Origin: an endosymbiont of unidentified scaly snail isolate Monju
GTDB lineage: Bacteria > Pseudomonadota > Gammaproteobacteria > Chromatiales > Chromatiaceae
Assembly: GCF_000801295.1 (NCBI RefSeq)
Contig: NZ_AP012978.1
Span: 434,001-498,000 of the forward strand
Length of the DNA: 64,000 bases
Direction: 5' to 3'
Shown here: piece by piece, positions 7,553 to 19,159 of the stretch
How positions within the stretch are numbered: the first letter of the stretch is position 1
Layout of the letters: the number at the start of each line of letters is the position of its first letter
Notes under the pieces: model-generated
Database searches by the model: none
What the model was told of the DNA's origin: nothing
Seen by the model: the letters and a program-made list of their open reading frames with translations, nothing else
Program-made: the position numbers and the translations under genes

Positions 7553-9370
7553 TCAGGTGAGTGGGTAGAGCTGCGGCAGCAACCAGGAGAACACCGCCCA
7601 CATGATCAGCGTCAGCGGGACGCCCACGCGCAGGAAGTCGCCGAAGCGGTAGCCGCCGGCGCTCATCACCAGCAGGTTGGTCTTGTAGGCGATGGGGGTG
7701 GCGTAGCTCATGTTGGCGCCGAACAGCACGCTGAGCACGAAGGGTTCCTCGGGCAGGCCGAGCTGGCGTGCGATGCCGATGGCGATGGGGGTGCCGATCA
7801 GGGCCGCGGCGTTGTTCGACACGATGTTGGTGAAGATCGCCATCAGCAGCATCAGGCCGGAGAGCAGGGCCGCCGGCGGGGTGCCACGCGTGCCCTCGAC
7901 GAACAGGCCGGCCAGCCAGTCGGCCGCCCCGGTCGCCAGCAGGGCCTTGCCCAGTGCCAGGCTGGCGACCACGATGAGGATGACCTGGCTGCTCAGGGCA
8001 TGGGCGGCGTCACGCCAATCGAGGCAACGGGTGGCGATCATCAGCAGCACGCCGGCCAGTGCGGTATAGACGATGGGCAACCAGCCGAGAGCCGCTGGCA
8101 GTACGATCCCGGCCATGATCGCCAGCGCCAGCGGGGCACGGTCACTGTGCGGCAGCTCGGTGGTGGCATCCAGCACCAGCACCTGGGCTTCGCGCTTGAG
8201 TCGCGCGATCTGTTCGCGGCTGCCCTGGACCAGCACGATGTCGCCGACTTTCAGGCGGATATCGCGGATGTCGCGGCGCAGCAGGCGCGGCTGCCAGCCG
8301 GGACGGTGCAGCGCCAGGGTGAACAGCTGGTAGCGTTCGACAAAGTGAGACTGGGTCAGTGTCGCGCCCTCCAGCGACGAGCCCTGGGTGACCACCACCT
8401 CGGCCAGCTGCTGGTCTCCGGCTGCCAGCGGGTGATCCTCGTCCACCGGGGTGTCGCCAGCCCACAACTGGCCATCGAGTACCGTCTCGTATTCCTTCAG
8501 TCGGTCGGGCGTGTCCGACAGCAGCAGGCGGTCGCCGGCCCGCAACACCGCGTCGGGCAACGGAAGCAATTGGGCGTGTTCGCCACGCAGGATGCGCAGC
8601 ACCGGCAGCTCGTCGCCGGCCTTCTCGACAAGTTCTCGCAGCGGTCGTCCGTCCGCCCAGCTCCCTTCCGGCAACAGCAGTTGCGCAGTGAATACCCGGG
8701 GCGAGGTGTCGCCGAGCTGACTGTCGCGTGCCGGCAGCAGGCGTGGCGCGATCAACCACAGATAGAGCAGGCCGGCCCCGCCGGCGATGCTCACCGGCAG
8801 CAGGAAGTCGAACATGCCGAAACGTTCCAGACCCATCTCGGCGGCCACGCTCACCACCAGCAGGTTGGTCGAGGTGCCGATGGTGGTCGCCATGCCGCCG
8901 AGCAGGGTGGCGAAGCCCATCGGCATCAGTACGCGTGAGGCGGCATTGCCGGTGCGCAGCGAGACACTGACCAGGATGGGCAGCAACAGCACCACGATGG
9001 GCACATTGTTGACGAAGGCGCTGAACACCGCGCCCACCACCAGGGTGAGTGCCAGCGACAGCGCGGGCGCGGTCCCCCAGGCGCGCGCCAGAAGACGGCC
9101 GACCGGCTCCAGCGCACCTGTGCGCACCAGTCCCTGTCCGGCAATCATCAGGGCACAGACCGCGACCAGTGCCTCGTGCCCGAAGCCGAGCAGGAACTCG
9201 TGCGCCTCCAGGCGCACGCCCTCGTGCGTGTAGGGAAACAGCTCGAAGCCCAGCAGCAGGGCGACCAGCACGAACAGACTGGAGGTCTCGAGCGCCAGCC
9301 GCTCGCGGGTGAACAGGATCAGCGCGACCGCGGTGAGGGTCAGTGTGGCGATGGCGTGTGGTCCGGGCAT
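7553..9370 (-). CDS. SLC13/DASS-type transporter with two RCK_C (TrkA-C) domains
   Basis: Inner-membrane permease of about 605 aa of the type often annotated as SLC13 family permease (sodium-coupled anion or sulfur-compound transport). It has two halves of five to six helices. Each half carries the re-entrant-loop signature: FVNNVPIVVLLLPI in the first half and FTNIVSNNAAALIGTP in the second. Two RCK_C/TrkA-C-like domains lie between them in the cytosol (one ends near LLLSDTPDRLKEYE, the other contains GDIVLVQGSREQIARLK). The start is set at 9370, with GGAG six bases upstream; ATGs at 9382 and further upstream lack a site and would run into tmcA. The substrate is not predictable; sulfate or another small anion is possible. 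Confidence 0.85.
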   Translation of the reverse strand: MPGPHAIATLTLTAVALILFTRERLALETSSLFVLVALLLGFELFPYTHEGVRLEAHEFLLGFGHEALVAVCALMIAGQGLVRTGALEPVGRLLARAWGTAPALSLALTLVVGAVFSAFVNNVPIVVLLLPILVSVSLRTGNAASRVLMPMGFATLLGGMATTIGTSTNLLVVSVAAEMGLERFGMFDFLLPVSIAGGAGLLYLWLIAPRLLPARDSQLGDTSPRVFTAQLLLPEGSWADGRPLRELVEKAGDELPVLRILRGEHAQLLPLPDAVLRAGDRLLLSDTPDRLKEYETVLDGQLWAGDTPVDEDHPLAAGDQQLAEVVVTQGSSLEGATLTQSHFVERYQLFTLALHRPGWQPRLLRRDIRDIRLKVGDIVLVQGSREQIARLKREAQVLVLDATTELPHSDRAPLALAIMAGIVLPAALGWLPIVYTALAGVLLMIATRCLDWRDAAHALSSQVILIVVASLALGKALLATGAADWLAGLFVEGTRGTPPAALLSGLMLLMAIFTNIVSNNAAALIGTPIAIGIARQLGLPEEPFVLSVLFGANMSYATPIAYKTNLLVMSAGGYRFGDFLRVGVPLTLIMWAVFSWLLPQLYPLT

Positions 9371-9506
9371 GCTTTGCTCCATGCGATATGGCGGCATGGA
9401 TGCTGGCATTATCCGCATGGTGATGCCAGTACCCCGGCCCCTTGCCATGTTGCAGGGCTTGCCGCAGGCTGGCGCGTCGATGCCTGTACCACGAGGTGCT
9501 CCAGGG

Positions 9507-11516
9507 GTGAACGACAAGCGGCAAACACGCAGCTGCCAGGTGCTGGCCGGAGATCGGGAGCGCGCGCTGGCGCTGTTGCGCGTGGCGCTGGCGGCGGGTG
9601 TGTCGCGGTCTTGCCTGTGGTTTGGCGAGGCCGCGCCGGACGGTGTGCGGCGGCTCGGCCGGCACGATTACCTCGATGCCCTGGGCTGCGAATGCGACCT
9701 TCTGGTGTACGACGCCCATGCCGGCCTGTATCCCGACGTGCTGGCGGCCCTGCTGGGTACCTTGCGAGGCGGTGGCGTGCTGGTCCTGCTTTCTCCGTCC
9801 TGGGCGCAGTGGGCGGCCTTCGACGACCCGGCGCTGGCCGGCCTGGCCCCCTGGCCGCTGGGGAGCACCGATGTCGGGCGGCGCTTCCTGCAGCGACTTC
9901 AGGACCAGTTCGCCGCCTCGCCGGTAGTGCGCATCCTCGATGTGGACGGGACCGAGTCTCTGGTTCTGCCACCAGCGGCGGCGCCAGTGCATTCCCCGGA
10001 ATTGAACGAAGATCAGCACCGGGTGGTCGAGGCATTGCTCCGGGTGGTGACCGGCCATGCCCGGCGCCCGCTGCTGCTCACCGCCGACCGGGGGCGCGGC
10101 AAGAGCACTGCCCTCGGCGCCGGCCTGGCGCGGCTGCTGCGTGAACGGTCGTGCCGGGTGGCCGTGCTGGCACCGACACGACGCGCCGTGGAAGCGCTGT
10201 TCGCGCGTCTGCACCGTGATCTGCCGGATGCCGGCGGTGAGGTGCGCTACTGGCGGCCCGCCGACTTCCTGGCCGAAGCGCCGGATTGCGATCTGCTGGT
10301 GATCGACGAGGCCGCCGCCCTGGGCGTGCCGCTGTTGCAGACGCTGGCCGAGCGTTACAACCGGGTCGTCTTCAGCACCACGGTGCAGGGCTACGAGGGC
10401 AGCGGGCGCGGCTTCGTGCAGCGCTTCCTCGCCTGGCTGAACGAACGGTTTCGCGCTTGTCGGCATCTCGAGCTCTCCGCCCCGGTGCGCTGGGCGCCGG
10501 GCGATCCCCTGGAGGCGCTGGCGAACCGCCTGTTCCTGCTGGATGCCGAGGCGTTGCCGCCGGTGCAGGGTGTGCCACGCTACCGTTGGCTGGAACGCGA
10601 TGCACTGGCACAGGAGGAGGCGCTGTTGCGCCAGGTATTTGGCCTGCTGGTCAGCGCCCACTATCGCACTCGGCCATCGGATCTTCGGCAGTTGCTCGAT
10701 GCGCCGGGGGTGTCGGTGCTGGTGGCCGAATGTGCTGGACAGGTGATCGGCGTGTTGCTGGCGGCCGCCGAGGGCGGGCTGGATGCGGCGCTGGCCGAGG
10801 CGGTGTGCGCCGGTCGACGACGCCCCCGTGGCCATCCCCTGTTGCAGTCGCTGGCCACGCACGGCGGCTGGTGCCAGGCGCCGACCTTGCGCCTGTTGCG
10901 GATCATGCGTATCGCGGTGGACGAGCGCCATCGCCGCGCGGGTATCGGCAGCGGCCTGCTGGCACGGGCGCGTGAGCGCGCCGAGGCGGAGGGCTTCGAC
11001 CTGCTTGGCTCCCGCTATGGCGTGTCGCCCGGTCTGTTGCGTTTCTGGCAGCAGAACGGCTACCGGGTGGTGCGCATCGGGCACCGCGTGGACCCCGCGA
11101 GTGCCGCCCACTCGGTGCAGATGCTCGCGTCGCTGAGTACGGCCGGCGAGGCACTGTGCGATGCGGCCTGTGCGCGCTTTCTGGACGATCTGCCCTGGCG
11201 CCTGCTCTCGGGGCTGGCCGGGCTGGACCCGGGCGTGGTGTCCGGGCTGTTTCGCCAGGCCGGCGGGGACTGGGCGGCGCCCGATGCACAGACACTTGCG
11301 GATGTGAGGCACTTCGCCCTTGGTCGGCGTGACTTCGAGGATGCCCTGCCGTCTCTGCGCCGAGGGCTCTGTGCCTGGCTCGCCAGGGAGGACGCAGGCG
11401 AGAACGGTGCGCTACTGGTGCGGTGCGTGCTCCAGGGCCGGCGGCCGACGCGTGAACAGGTCGCGATGTTGCGTCGCTTGTTCGCGGCGGGGACGCCGCT
11501 CCTGCAATCCCGGTAG
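9507..11516 (+). CDS. tmcA: tRNA(Met) cytidine acetyltransferase TmcA
   Basis: Acetylates the wobble cytidine of elongator tRNA-Met (ac4C34) with acetyl-CoA and ATP, preventing misreading of Ile codons. Visible parts: an N-terminal TmcA domain; a helicase-like ATPase module with Walker A DRGRGKST and Walker B LLVIDEAAALGVPLL; FSTTVQGYEGSGRGF, typical of the family; and a GNAT domain with RIMRIAVDERHRRAGIGSGLL. The GTG at 9507 is preferred: GAGGTG precedes it at 8 bases and the 669-aa length matches E. coli TmcA (671). Longer in-frame starts at 9417 or 9480 would overlap the divergent transporter leader. The last 12 codons are supplied by a REP-like repeat (11481-11502), giving the tail AAGTPLLQSR. 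Confidence 0.93.
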   Translation: MNDKRQTRSCQVLAGDRERALALLRVALAAGVSRSCLWFGEAAPDGVRRLGRHDYLDALGCECDLLVYDAHAGLYPDVLAALLGTLRGGGVLVLLSPSWAQWAAFDDPALAGLAPWPLGSTDVGRRFLQRLQDQFAASPVVRILDVDGTESLVLPPAAAPVHSPELNEDQHRVVEALLRVVTGHARRPLLLTADRGRGKSTALGAGLARLLRERSCRVAVLAPTRRAVEALFARLHRDLPDAGGEVRYWRPADFLAEAPDCDLLVIDEAAALGVPLLQTLAERYNRVVFSTTVQGYEGSGRGFVQRFLAWLNERFRACRHLELSAPVRWAPGDPLEALANRLFLLDAEALPPVQGVPRYRWLERDALAQEEALLRQVFGLLVSAHYRTRPSDLRQLLDAPGVSVLVAECAGQVIGVLLAAAEGGLDAALAEAVCAGRRRPRGHPLLQSLATHGGWCQAPTLRLLRIMRIAVDERHRRAGIGSGLLARARERAEAEGFDLLGSRYGVSPGLLRFWQQNGYRVVRIGHRVDPASAAHSVQMLASLSTAGEALCDAACARFLDDLPWRLLSGLAGLDPGVVSGLFRQAGGDWAAPDAQTLADVRHFALGRRDFEDALPSLRRGLCAWLAREDAGENGALLVRCVLQGRRPTREQVAMLRRLFAAGTPLLQSR

Positions 11517-12322: not shown

Positions 12323-12886
12323 TCATCCTGCTCGCCGCGCCAGGTAGGCGATGGGGCCGGGGGAGTCGTGCACCTCGACGCTCAGGGTGGCCTGCGCCGC
12401 GAACCAGCCGGCCACCGCCTCGGCTTCTTCCCGCCCGCCGGCATGGCCACGATACACCAGCACCGAGAGCAGCCCGCCGGGGCGCAGCAGGGCGCTCGCC
12501 TGCACCAGCGCGGCCAAGGTGGTGTCCGGGCGGGTGACCAGGCCGTGATCACCGCCCGGCAGATAGCCCAGGTTGAAGGTCACCGCGGCGACCTGGCCGG
12601 TCAGGTCCTCGGGCAGGTGCTCGCGCATCTTTTCGTGCCCGGCCAGGTGCAGGGTCACGCGTTCGGCCAACCCGGCCTGCGCGAGGCGCTCCTGTGTGGC
12701 CTCGAGCGCCTGCGGCTGGATATCGAAGGCATGCACCCGGCCGCCGGGGGTGATCTGCCGGGCGAGGAAAAGGGTATCGTGGCCGTTGCCGGCGGTGGCG
12801 TCGATGGCAATATCGCCCGGCGCCAGCACGTCAGCGAGCCGCTGGTGGGCGAGTGCGGTCAACGGTTGGCGGCGCGGCTCAGGCAT
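12323..12886 (-). CDS. SAM-dependent methyltransferase, YtqB/MnmM family
   Basis: 187-aa class I methyltransferase. SAM-binding motif I reads IDATAGNGHDTLFLA and motif II HAFDIQPQALE. The segments FNLGYLPGGDHGLVTRPDTT and VYRGHAGGREEAEA are close to Bacillus YtqB, the enzyme (MnmM, from memory) that methylates nm5s2U to mnm5s2U in tRNA wobble position 34. Start at 12886: the ATG overlaps the stop of the upstream FAD oxidoreductase by 8 bases (ATGCCTGA), implying translational coupling. In E. coli the equivalent two steps are done by the bifunctional MnmC, so the pair here could be a two-gene substitute. An older label, putative rRNA methylase, is the main alternative. Confidence 0.8.
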   Translation of the reverse strand: MPEPRRQPLTALAHQRLADVLAPGDIAIDATAGNGHDTLFLARQITPGGRVHAFDIQPQALEATQERLAQAGLAERVTLHLAGHEKMREHLPEDLTGQVAAVTFNLGYLPGGDHGLVTRPDTTLAALVQASALLRPGGLLSVLVYRGHAGGREEAEAVAGWFAAQATLSVEVHDSPGPIAYLARRAG

Positions 12887-13931
12887 GGCGGGCGATGTCG
12901 GTCTCGGCAGGCAGCGGGCGGCCGTCGAGCAGCCAGTCGGCCATGCGTTCGGCATGCCAGGGAATGCTCAGGGCGCCGCGCGCGCCAAAGCCGTTGAACA
13001 GGTGCAGCCGCGGCTCGCGCGGGTGGGTGCCCAGGAAGGACTGGCGGTCGGCGGTGGCCGGGCGCACCCCGGCGGCCTCTTCGACCACCGTCACCCCGGC
13101 CGGATCTTCGAGCAGCCCGTGCAAGCCGAGGTGCAGTGTCTCGCGTTCTTCCTCGCTTACCGGGCCTTCGAGTCGCCGGTGGGCATGGGTGGCGCCGAAG
13201 CGGTAACCGCCATCGGCCAGCGGGATCAGCCAGTGTGCGCCGTTGATGATGTGCCGGCACAGGCGGTGCAGTCCGTCCAGGCGCTGGATCACGCCGCGGT
13301 CGGGTTGCAGCGGCAGCCAGTCGAACCAGGGATTGTCGCGCATCCGGTAGCCCTCGCAGCAGACCAGGTGGGCGGCGCGCTCGCCGTGCAGTTCCACTCC
13401 GTCGGGTGTGATGCGCAGTGTGCGCAGATCGACGGCGACCTGCCGCCAGGCGTCTTGTCTGTGCAGCCAGTCGCGCAGGGCATCGAGCAGGCGTGGCAGT
13501 TCCACGTAGCCGGTGTGCGATTGCAGAAAGCCACCGTGTGGTGCGCGGATGCCGGAGTCAGCTTCGCCGGATCCGAAGCGCGCGCCCAGCCAGTCGGCCA
13601 CCGCCGGATTGTCGCGCTGGCGATCGAAAAAGCGGACCTGCTCGGGCGAGCGGAACAGGCGTTGCATGGGGATGGTGTGCACGAAAGCAGGCTGGCCCAG
13701 TTGGCGGGCGAGGGCGGCGTAGGTGCTGTGCATGGCGGCCAGCCAGTCGGCAGTGCGCGGGTGGGCATTGAAGCGCATGCCGGCCAGCGGGTTGATCAGA
13801 CCGGCAGCGACCCGTGAGCTGGCGGTGCGGTGGCCGTCGTCGAGCACACGCACCTGCTGGCCACGACGGATCAGCGTCCAGGCCAGCAGGCTGCCGGCCA
13901 GTCCCTGCCCGATGATCAGGTAGTCAGGCAT
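12879..13931 (-). CDS. FAD-dependent oxidoreductase, DAO family, MnmC(o)-like
   Basis: 350-aa flavoprotein. N-terminal dinucleotide motif YLIIGQGLAGSLLAWTL; a substrate domain in the middle; C-terminal FNGFGARGALSIPWHAERMA followed by LLDGRPLP, which resembles the LGSRGL end of the oxidase domain of MnmC. In MnmC that domain removes the carboxymethyl group from cmnm5U to give nm5U. The partner methylase follows with an 8-base overlap, and plsC precedes with another 8-base overlap of the same sequence (ATGCCTGA at 13924-13931). A general glycine-oxidase-like activity is the alternative. Family assignment is firm; the tRNA role is inference from the neighbour. Confidence 0.78.
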   Translation of the reverse strand: MPDYLIIGQGLAGSLLAWTLIRRGQQVRVLDDGHRTASSRVAAGLINPLAGMRFNAHPRTADWLAAMHSTYAALARQLGQPAFVHTIPMQRLFRSPEQVRFFDRQRDNPAVADWLGARFGSGEADSGIRAPHGGFLQSHTGYVELPRLLDALRDWLHRQDAWRQVAVDLRTLRITPDGVELHGERAAHLVCCEGYRMRDNPWFDWLPLQPDRGVIQRLDGLHRLCRHIINGAHWLIPLADGGYRFGATHAHRRLEGPVSEEERETLHLGLHGLLEDPAGVTVVEEAAGVRPATADRQSFLGTHPREPRLHLFNGFGARGALSIPWHAERMADWLLDGRPLPAETDIARHA

Positions 13932-14664
13932 GATCTTCCACCACGGTGACGATGGCCTCGCGCGCGCGCGTGGCCAGGGTCTTGCTGTCGCTGTTGGCGG
14001 AGGCCAGCAGCGGCAGAAAATGCACCTCGATGGTGCTGCCGGGGCGCCCCAGCAGCCCCAGCAGGTTGGCGAGCAGGGTCTGGTCGCCGGTATAGGGGGC
14101 CACCGGATCGTGATGGCCATCGACCCGGTAACGCAGGGCCACCGAGGCCACCGGTGCGCCCGCCTCGATGGCGGCGGCGAACAGGCGCGAGAAGAAGGGA
14201 CGTACCGAGCGGCCGTCGCTGGTGGTGCCCTCGGGAAACAAGGCGAGCATGCTGCCGTGCCGCAGGCGCTCGGCAATGGCCCCGCGGATCTGAGCCGACT
14301 GGCCACTGCCGCGACGGATGAACAGGGTGCCCATGCGCATCGCCAGCCAGCCGATCAATGGCCAGCGGCGCACCTCGGCCTTGGACAGGAATGCCGTGGG
14401 CAGCAGGTAACCGAGCACAGTGATGTCTAGCCAGGAGACGTGATTGGCCACCACCAGGGCCGGGGGGGCGGGCGGCTCGCCGTGGACCTCGATGCGCAGG
14501 TTCAGGATGCGCAGCAGCCGGTGGTGCCACCAGCGGACGATGCGCCAGTCGACCTGCCGGCGGCTCCCGCTGTTGCGCCGGGTGGCGACCGGCACCAGCA
14601 ACACGCCTGCCAGCAGGTGCAGCATGATCAGGACGGTGCGCCAGGGGATCCGCAGCAGATGCAT
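13924..14664 (-). CDS. plsC: 1-acyl-sn-glycerol-3-phosphate acyltransferase (PlsC-like)
   Basis: 246-aa inner-membrane acyltransferase making phosphatidic acid from lysophosphatidate and acyl-ACP/CoA. It shows an N-terminal hydrophobic segment, then the catalytic HX4D motif NHVSWLD, block II-like FIRRGSGQ, and the glycerol-phosphate-binding FPEGTTSDG. The ATG at 14664 shares one base with the stop of the upstream methyltransferase (TGATG); a TTG one codon earlier is less likely. It belongs to the four-gene overlapping minus-strand operon. Other enzymes with this fold (ornithine-lipid acyltransferase OlsA) cannot be excluded. Confidence 0.87.
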   Translation of the reverse strand: MHLLRIPWRTVLIMLHLLAGVLLVPVATRRNSGSRRQVDWRIVRWWHHRLLRILNLRIEVHGEPPAPPALVVANHVSWLDITVLGYLLPTAFLSKAEVRRWPLIGWLAMRMGTLFIRRGSGQSAQIRGAIAERLRHGSMLALFPEGTTSDGRSVRPFFSRLFAAAIEAGAPVASVALRYRVDGHHDPVAPYTGDQTLLANLLGLLGRPGSTIEVHFLPLLASANSDSKTLATRAREAIVTVVEDHA

Positions 14665-15240
14665 CAATCCTTTCCGTGCTGGCGGACGTACTCGTACATC
14701 ACGATTGCCGCGGCCACGCTGGCATTCAGGCTCTCCATCTGTCCGAACAGCGGGATGCGCAAGGTCTGCATGCCCGGATAGTCGGTCGGCTCGAAGCTGA
14801 GGCCGAACTCCTCGTTGCCCACCACAAAGGCGCTTTTCTCCGCCAGCGTGATCTGGCGCAGGTCGTGTTCACCGTCGGCGGTCAGGGCATAGTAAGGTGT
14901 AATCCCGGTCGCACAGGTCTGTCCAGGCGCTGTCGAAAGTCTCGTGGAAGCGGGCTGGCACCTTGCGAAAGGCCCCCTTGGCGGGGGCGGTGTCGAACAC
15001 CCCGATGTTCACCAGGTGCACCTCGGCGCCACCAAAGGCCTGCACGCTGCGGAAGATCTTGGGTACGTTGAAGCCGGCCTTGAGATGATCGAGCACGAAG
15101 GCGAAGGTGTGTGGACCGGGCTGTGCCAGCACGTTGCGCTGCCGGTCCTTGTGGTAGCGCTGTTCGATCTGCTTCTGTCGTGCCAGCCGGGCGGCGCGGC
15201 GTTGCGAGCGGGTGAGCGGGATTTCGGCGTCGTTGGTCAT
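14664..15240 (-). pseudogene. TrmH/SpoU-family RNA methyltransferase, frameshifted
   Basis: SPOUT-class 2'-O-methyltransferase for tRNA or rRNA. The 5' frame (ATG at 15240) gives a basic N-terminus (TRSQRRAARLARQKQ), FVLDHLKAGFNVPKIFRSVQAFG and DYT. The 3' frame continues as YYALTADGEHDLRQI, VGNEEFGLS and the SAM-knot motif GQMESLNASVAAAIVMYEY. The join falls at the AA pair at 14894-14895 (plus strand); removing one base gives DYTYYALTADG and a 191-aa protein. There is no long homopolymer here, so the case for sequencing error is weaker than for the others. It heads the plsC / FAD oxidoreductase / methylase operon. The RNA target is unknown. Confidence 0.78.
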
Positions 15241-17997: not shown

Positions 17998-19159
17998 ATG
18001 GTCCGTACCCGCAAGGTCGAGCCACTGCCGGTGACCGTGCTCGAGGACATCGGCATGCAGTGGCACACCGATGCCGACGGCAGCGCCTACCTCGTGCCCG
18101 AGCTGGTGGAGGTGAGCGAGGCCGAGGCCGAGGCCTATTACGAGGCCGCCAATGCGCTGTACGCGATGTTCGTCGCATGTCATCGACCACGGCCGTTACG
18201 CCGAGCTGGGTATCGACGCCGCGCTGGTGCCGCTGATCGAGGAGAGCTGGGAGCGCGACGATTGGCACCTGTATGGTCGCTTCGACCTCGCCGGGGGACT
18301 CGACGGCCGCCCGATCAAGCTGATCGAGTTCAATGCGGACACGCCCACCGCTCTGTACGAGACGGCCATCGTGCAATGGGCGCTGCTGCGTGCCAACGGC
18401 CTGGACGAGGCGCGGCAGTTCAACAACCTGCACGAGATGCTGCAGGAGAGCTTCCGTTGCTGCGTGGTGGGCGAGGGGGGCGACTTCGCGGCCGACTACC
18501 GGCAGGAGAAGTTCCTGTTCTCCAGCATCGAGGGCCTGCCCGAGGACGAACGCACCGTGCGCTACCTGCAACAGGTGGCTCACGAGGCCGGCTTGTTCAC
18601 CGACTTCTGCTTCCTGCATGAGACGGGTTTTCTCGAAGGGCAGGGGGTGTTCAACCGCGATGCCCAGCGTGCCGACTTCTGGTTCAAGCTGTTTCCCTGG
18701 GAAGACATCCCCGCGCAGGAACCGGAACTGGTGCCCACCCTGCAGCACATCAGCCGGGTTGGTGCCACCCGGTTCGTCAACCCCGCCTACACCTTGCTGT
18801 TCCAGAGCAAGGGCATGCTCGCCATCCTGTACGAGCTGTTTCCCGATTCCCCCTGGCTGCTCGAGACTCGCTTCCAGCCGCTCGCCGGCAAGGCGCAGGT
18901 GGAAAAACGCCTGTTCGGCCGCGAGGGCGAGAACACCCGCATCCTCGATGCCGAGGAGCGCGTGATCGCCGAGACCGGCGGCGCCTACGGTCACCACCCC
19001 GCCATCTGGCAGGAGTACGTCGAACTGCCGCAGGATGCTGCCGGACGGCGCTACCAGGCGGGCGTCTTCCACGCCTGCGAGGCCTGCGGCCTGGGCTTCC
19101 GCCGTGGCGGCGAGATCCTCGACAATCTCAGCAAGTTCGTGGGGCATATGGTGGTTTGA
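17998..19159 (+). pseudogene. Glutathionylspermidine synthase family protein (YgiC-like), frameshifted
   Basis: ATP-grasp C-N ligase family member. The first frame (ATG 17998) reads to YYEAANALYAMFV. The second frame resumes at HVIDHGRYAELGI and carries the rest: LYGRFDLAGG, LIEFNADTPTALYE, KLFPWEDIP, LFGREGENTRIL and the C-terminal HACEACGLGFRRGG. The frame changes near 18170-18180. Removing one base repairs the frame, but compared with YgiC from memory three to four residues seem missing at that point, so an 11-base deletion fits as well. The full gene would encode about 386-390 aa (E. coli YgiC is 386). True glutathionylspermidine synthase has an extra amidase domain that is absent here, so the substrate is unknown. 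Confidence 0.82.

Follow-up and report, generated by a model that had tools for sequence, protein, structure and literature searches.

A gene pair encoding an FAD oxidoreductase and an MnmM-type methyltransferase as a probable two-gene substitute for MnmC in a gammaproteobacterium

MnmEG makes cmnm5(s2)U34, and in enterics the oxidase and methylase steps of mnm5s2U formation that follow are both carried out by MnmC, in one polypeptide. The locus described here, on the minus strand of a 64,000-nucleotide stretch of DNA from a gammaproteobacterium (the window), raises the question of whether two separate and differently descended proteins can take the place of that enzyme, since it contains an FAD oxidoreductase ORF (P0002) and a methyltransferase ORF (P0001), both intact (Table 1). 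A sequence-only reading of the window had proposed that the two genes form such a substitute, and this is still the best reading, given that no MnmC2 domain is found in the genome, that P0001 scores as MnmM and that the oxidoreductase and MnmM co-occur in other genomes. We therefore consider it quite probable, on genomic grounds, that the pair does the work of bifunctional MnmC in wobble-uridine modification as two separate proteins, of which the oxidoreductase would make nm5U34 and MnmM would methylate it.

Table 1. Positions of the gene pair and the adjoining upstream gene in the window
Feature	Location	Strand	Details
MnmM (YtqB-type) tRNA nm5(s2)U34 methyltransferase (P0001), predicted	12323..12886	-	187 aa; start MPEPRRQP
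Standalone FAD oxidoreductase (P0002), glycine oxidase/MnmC(o) superfamily, candidate cmnm5U34 oxidase	12879..13931	-	350 aa
Overlap of oxidoreductase stop and MnmM start	12879..12886	-	8 bases; ORF coordinates
PlsC-type acyltransferase	13924..14667	-	PF01553

The 8-base overlap of the two genes, which had already been pointed out, is confirmed by the ORF coordinates and is likely to reflect translational coupling. Directly upstream of the oxidoreductase gene, and also overlapping it by 8 bases, is a gene for a PlsC-type acyltransferase, which scores under the cut-offs of models for lyso-ornithine lipid acyltransferases; it is probably co-transcribed with the oxidoreductase and MnmM genes but has no evident role in U34 modification. 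Just upstream of the acyltransferase, at about 14665-15240 on the minus strand, there is a SpoU-type RNA methyltransferase gene that is frameshifted (or contains a sequencing error); in near relatives (L013 and L053, L014 and L050, L051) it is a single open frame, and in L059 a homolog immediately precedes the oxidoreductase gene. Less than 1 kb from the pair, at 9309-11516 on the plus strand, is the gene for a TmcA-like tRNA(Met) cytidine acetyltransferase, likewise a wobble-position enzyme, whose score of 350 bits falls short of the 700 required by the single model that it matches at E 1e-10. A protein encoded at 18152-19159 on the plus strand resembles the C-terminal part of bifunctional glutathionylspermidine amidase/synthase, at a score far below the family cut-off (65 versus 882 bits). 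No tRNA genes were found in the window, P0002 has no matches in plasmids at E 1e-20, and neither P0001 nor P0002 has a match in PHROGs.

The methyltransferase is recognized by a curated model. P0001 scores 188 bits against the NCBIfam MnmM equivalog NF053511 (cut-off 135), a model that is matched by 22 of 22 aligned MnmM members, and it also matches Pfam PF06962; the motifs NLGYLPGGD and RPDTT, which had been read as hallmarks of YtqB, are both present in the protein, and the passing score bears that reading out. Conversion of nm5(s2)U34 to mnm5(s2)U34 has been demonstrated for MnmM of Bacillus subtilis and other orthologs, for which nm5U34 is the required substrate (PMC9976899). In the B. subtilis enzyme, mutation of Lys11, Asp34, Asn101, Tyr104, Lys110, Tyr141, or His144 nearly abolishes activity (PMC9976899), and five of these seven residues are kept in P0001, where Asp34, Asn101, Tyr104, Tyr141, and His144 correspond to Asp37, Asn105, Tyr108, Tyr145, and His148. 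The two lysines are replaced by His14 and His114, and the solved homolog 3eey aligns His at the Lys11 and Lys110 positions as well. Two further residues of the B. subtilis protein, Gln176 and Asn178, contact U35 (PMC9976899) and are unmatched in P0001, because the profile match between the two proteins stops at B. subtilis residue 167; judged from this comparison, the tRNA preference of P0001 may be different from that of B. subtilis MnmM.

The oxidoreductase is less readily placed. P0002 is a member of the DAO family (PF01266, 99.5 bits), but it reaches only 86 bits on the MnmC1 model TIGR03197, where the cut-off is 174 and two true standalone MnmC1 proteins score 364 and 367 bits, and 70 bits on the ThiO model TIGR02352, where the cut-off is 251; NCBIfam 20.0 contains no model whose cut-off P0002 passes. 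The MnmC-like C terminus that had been ascribed to the protein thus stands as a superfamily resemblance, but at 86 versus 174 bits it does not extend to membership in MnmC1. In an unrooted maximum-likelihood tree of 57 rows, which include 36 from the oxidoreductase family, 16 from MnmC(o) and 4 from ThiO, the MnmC(o) rows form one clade (100/99), the ThiO rows form another (100/100), and a 97/99 branch groups MnmC(o) with ThiO and leaves the oxidoreductase family outside. The bootstrap of this tree had not settled, and L004, a very long row from outside the oxidoreductase family, was placed within it, so that the family needed two changes in the tree. By these sequence comparisons P0002 is a separate branch of the glycine-oxidase superfamily and not an MnmC(o) ortholog; the identity with MnmC(o) by descent that the sequence-only reading implied has to be given up, P0002 being outside the MnmC(o) clade and under the MnmC1 cut-off.

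Structural comparison gives a similar picture. The AlphaFold2 model of P0002 (pLDDT 96, pTM 0.93) aligns with glycine oxidases at Z 35-38 (rmsd 2.3-2.7, 340-347 residues) and with MnmC at Z 34 (rmsd 2.8-2.9, 338-346 residues), and since sarcosine oxidases and other relatives are also found at Z 32, the fold match is at the level of the superfamily. The first Foldseek match of the model is iminodiacetate oxidase, the named substrate of which is an N-substituted glycine. The MnmC1 and ThiO models each match 25 of the 25 aligned members of the oxidoreductase family (25 of the 27 members from the order sample described below were aligned; the structure alignment covers 54 of 79 named loci), and because the two models match equally widely and the fold match is at the superfamily level, the substrate is not named by sequence or by fold. 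In a 56-row alignment of the oxidoreductase family, MnmC(o) and ThiO (four ThiO rows), Arg290 is invariant across all three groups and, from its alignment position, seems to match Arg567 of MnmC. Trp234 of P0002 is Trp in 92% of the family rows and Tyr in 94% of the MnmC(o) rows and all ThiO rows, and position 318 is Arg in P0002, Lys in 61% of the family rows, Arg in 94% of the MnmC(o) rows, and Asn in all four ThiO rows. Median isoelectric points are higher in the family (8.68, 36 members) than in MnmC(o) (7.25, 16 proteins) and ThiO (5.87, four proteins), which leans towards an anionic substrate, but P0002 itself has an ordinary value of 7.4 and base composition may account for the rest.

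The source genome, a single contig of 2,597,759 bases, was searched for enzymes that could perform the same steps. The MnmC2 methylase domain PF05430 has no match at E up to 0.001 in these 2.6 Mb (E. coli and seven more of 14 control genomes give matches in the same search), and no oxidoreductase in the genome exceeds the MnmC1 cut-off. The look for a canonical mnmC elsewhere that had been advised with the first reading therefore found none, and that possibility was rejected. P0002 was also rejected as the ThiO of this genome, its 70 bits against a cut-off of 251 being set beside another protein that passes at 281 bits; since a separate true ThiO is encoded elsewhere, P0002 is not needed as a thiamine enzyme.

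The distribution of the two genes was followed in an order sample of 147 genomes, all listed rows of which have the family code f1, and in a class sample of 321 genomes, which shares G000, G001, and G002 with the order sample. Membership in the oxidoreductase family was set at a score of at least 228 bits. The lowest member in the order sample scored 242 bits and the next match 46 bits, and the next best match in the class sample, where at most six candidates per genome were scored, was at 99 bits. For MnmC2 the upper limit of E was 1e-6 in the class sample and 0.001 in the source genome, the order sample, and the named genomes described below. In the order sample 27 genomes have the oxidoreductase and 31 have MnmM over its cut-off; every one of the 27 has MnmM too, which leaves 4 genomes with MnmM alone and 116 without either gene. 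MnmC2 is present in a single genome of this sample, as a weak match. The class sample contains 24 genomes with the oxidoreductase and 26 with MnmM (including one fragment below the cut-off, in G414), and 23 have both; MnmC2 is found in 76 genomes, none of which has either the oxidoreductase or MnmM. Fisher tests on hand counts from the genome listings, in which related genomes are not independent, give p values for the oxidoreductase-MnmM pair of 1e-25 (order) and 8e-31 (class) and, in the class sample, of 0.0011 for MnmM versus MnmC2 and 0.0019 for the oxidoreductase versus MnmC2.

Because 23 of the 24 carriers among the 321 class genomes have MnmM and none has the MnmC methylase, the pairing is not due to chance. 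The oxidoreductase occurs in 16 family codes of the class sample, 15 of which also have MnmM, and the possibility that the two are chance neighbours was rejected on the grounds that the association extends across 15 family codes and is retained where the genes are unlinked. The presence of the pair in 23 of 321 sampled class genomes also means that the arrangement is not unusual for Gammaproteobacteria, contrary to what had been supposed from the sequence. MnmM occurs without the oxidoreductase in 4 of 31 order genomes and 3 of 26 class genomes. In the MnmM neighbourhoods of six such genomes (G011, G118, G076, G066, G300, and G410; 3.8-7.5 kb each, the G076 stretch ending at a contig end), no oxidoreductase was found by profile and the C-x3-C-x2-C motif was absent among the ORFs picked.

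Most of the pairs are also adjacent. MnmM is directly downstream of the oxidoreductase on the same strand in 19 of the 27 order genomes that carry the latter and in 22 of the 23 class genomes that have both. Of the 19 linked order genomes, the source genome counted, 18 have frames that overlap by 4-16 bases with start codons as chosen by the script. In the remaining eight order genomes, which share one genus code, both genes are retained but unlinked. Among the named loci, which are the best about 80 of 538 relatives (counts are over 79) and some of which are from genomes of the order and class samples, MnmM is directly downstream in 55 of 79 and within 2.8 kb in 4 more; several are thus one and the same genome under two handles, G473 (L076) having MnmM at the same place as G110, and G480 (L111) being equal to G225. 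These loci include Sedimenticola and other Chromatiales, Methylobacter, Methylomonas, Cycloclasticus, and Mariprofundus, and those with adjacent pairs include Methylococcaceae and Mariprofundus, a member of the Zetaproteobacteria. A fused oxidoreductase-MnmM ORF was sought and rejected, none being present among stop-to-stop frames of at least 450 residues in the loci examined.

Twenty named genomes have no MnmM in the stretch examined; 12 of them have it elsewhere, and in 8 it was not found genome-wide. Two of these eight are Bacteroidia metagenome-assembled genomes with an MnmC2 domain (84.5 bits) or fragment (28.5 bits); a third, the gammaproteobacterial metagenome-assembled genome G468, matches MnmC2 weakly (24.8 bits). 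The other five, of which Methylovulum psychrotolerans is one, have no MnmC2 match either. The oxidoreductase is also present in the single-contig genome G180, in which neither MnmM nor MnmC2 was found. The retention of the oxidoreductase with no detected nm5U methylase in M. psychrotolerans and G180 (L102 and L132) suggests that nm5U is the end product there or that the methylase is unrecognized. The oxidoreductases of the two Bacteroidia genomes (L083 and L089) are nested among those of Methylococcaceae in the tree, their flanking genes are Bacteroidetes-like by eye, and the MnmC2 domain or fragment is in the same genomes; horizontal transfer into a genome with an orphan MnmC2 is possible, as is a binning error.

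The principal alternative concerns a protein that the sequence-only reading left out. The source genome encodes, unlinked to MnmM, one protein over the cut-off of TIGR01212 (393 versus 180 bits), a model named "tRNA modification radical SAM protein MnmL/YtqA" in NCBIfam, so that the proposal of a local oxidase has to be weighed against a rival for the oxidation step: nm5U34 would be made by this MnmL and methylated by the local MnmM, and the flavin oxidoreductase would have some other function, for instance the oxidation of a free amino acid or of a different N-substituted glycine. Besides the protein itself, this explanation can draw on the order sample, where the MnmL family (matches at E up to 1e-30) is present in 114 of 147 genomes, including all four that have MnmM without the oxidoreductase. 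However, the family is also common without MnmM (95 of the 116 genomes with neither gene) and is rarer in oxidoreductase carriers (15 of 27) than in non-carriers (99 of 120; p 0.0045). It was not found in 12 of the 27 genomes with both the oxidoreductase and MnmM, one of which is a single contig (G031) and the others drafts, and MnmL is therefore not a general answer; in those 12 genomes, as far as gene content indicates, no candidate other than the oxidoreductase is evident for the conversion of cmnm5U to nm5U. Each of the 31 MnmM genomes has the oxidoreductase, the MnmL family, or both, which is weak support, the MnmM-only genomes numbering four. E. coli, a species with MnmC2, likewise has a protein over the TIGR01212 cut-off, so that membership in the family is not proof of MnmL activity, and the assignment of the oxidation to MnmL would leave the association of the oxidoreductase with MnmM without an explanation. 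We regard it as unlikely. As a separate observation, the 116 order genomes without MnmM are, bar one weak match, also without MnmC2; 95 of them keep an MnmL-family gene, and their end product may be nm5 or cmnm5.

A flavin oxidase normally uses oxygen, and a radical-SAM enzyme is oxygen-sensitive. Each of them could convert cmnm5U34, either in its own conditions, such as the presence or absence of oxygen, or on its own set of tRNAs, and MnmM would serve the two; the 15 of 27 pair-carrying order genomes that also have the MnmL family would fit such a division of labour, to which we nevertheless assign a lower probability than to MnmL acting by itself.

In the reading that we prefer, that of a split substitute for MnmC, the starting point would be cmnm5(s2)U34 supplied by MnmEG. 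The FAD oxidoreductase would oxidize its N-carboxymethyl group, an N-substituted glycine, at the Cα-N bond, hydrolysis would then free the carboxymethyl part as glyoxylate to leave nm5(s2)U34, and this would be methylated to mnm5(s2)U34 by MnmM, the synthesis of the two proteins probably being coupled through the overlap of their genes. The model for this mechanism is MnmC(o), which oxidizes a Cα-N bond (PMC3648344), and oxidation of cmnm5U34 is proposed because of the chemistry of the superfamily, the invariant arginine, and the gene association. That the oxidoreductase instead acts on another side chain, or at another step of the U34 pathway, might be argued from its persistence in G180 and Methylovulum, where neither MnmM nor MnmC2 was found, and from position 234, where Trp stands in place of the Tyr seen in MnmC(o) and ThiO. 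However, the association is with MnmM itself, an enzyme that needs nm5U34 (PMC9976899), and the N-substituted glycine that the pathway most obviously offers is cmnm5; we consider this explanation very improbable.

If the preferred reading is correct, the oxidation step would have a third solution in this oxidoreductase, which is orthologous neither to MnmC(o) nor to the radical-SAM MnmL. A broader proposal, to which we give about even chances, is that its family is a third, independently recruited cmnm5U34 oxidase of modular use, which would work with MnmM in Gammaproteobacteria and Zetaproteobacteria, would be partnered by an orphan MnmC(m) in Bacteroidia that had acquired it by transfer, and would be the sole such oxidase in the pair-carrying genomes that lack MnmL. 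The pair is real and widespread, and on genomic evidence it represents a variation on a known pathway in which the oxidoreductases plausibly form a new enzyme family. Cho et al. stated in 2023 (PMC9976899) that the counterpart of MnmC(o) in organisms with MnmM was unknown, and the locus provides another candidate besides MnmL for this oxidase, with a strong genomic association; among the literature matches listed there is no report of a flavin oxidoreductase paired with MnmM, although Jaroch 2024 may mention one. If the proposal is true, a widespread wobble modification is completed, in its final two steps, by unrelated parts that can be exchanged for one another.

Of the known systems, bifunctional MnmC of E. 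coli, composed of MnmC(o)/MnmC1 and MnmC(m)/MnmC2, catalyzes the steps proposed here, from cmnm5U34 through nm5U34 to mnm5U34, and shares the FAD oxidase fold with P0002 (Z 34), but it is encoded by one gene, whereas here there are two, with a methylase of another family and an oxidase outside the MnmC(o) clade. The MnmL-MnmM pathway, which Jaroch 2024 is said to have proposed for Gram-positives (Bacilli), also combines a separate oxidation enzyme with MnmM, but MnmL is, by the name of its model, a radical-SAM protein, and in the present locus MnmM is coupled to a flavin oxidase instead. Glycine oxidase ThiO is among the closest solved folds and has the Arg290 position and the FAD motif in common with P0002; it differs in forming a separate clade, in a model cut-off that P0002 leaves unmet, and in a conserved Tyr where the P0002 family has Trp. 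P0001 belongs, by curated score, to the same family as MnmM/YtqB of Bacillus, Staphylococcus, and plants (PMC9976899), with the catalytic Asp, Asn, Tyr, Tyr, and His retained and the two lysines replaced by His, but its host is a gammaproteobacterium, and the passage on distribution in that paper does not list Gammaproteobacteria. In two loci of family code f104, L174 (1869-3146) and L191 (227-1495), a standalone MnmC1 is found beside a 249-residue MnmC2 frame. There, too, two genes would serve the two steps, but the f104 proteins belong to the canonical MnmC families (MnmC1 at 364 and 367 bits, MnmC2 by PF05430), and P0001 and P0002 do not.
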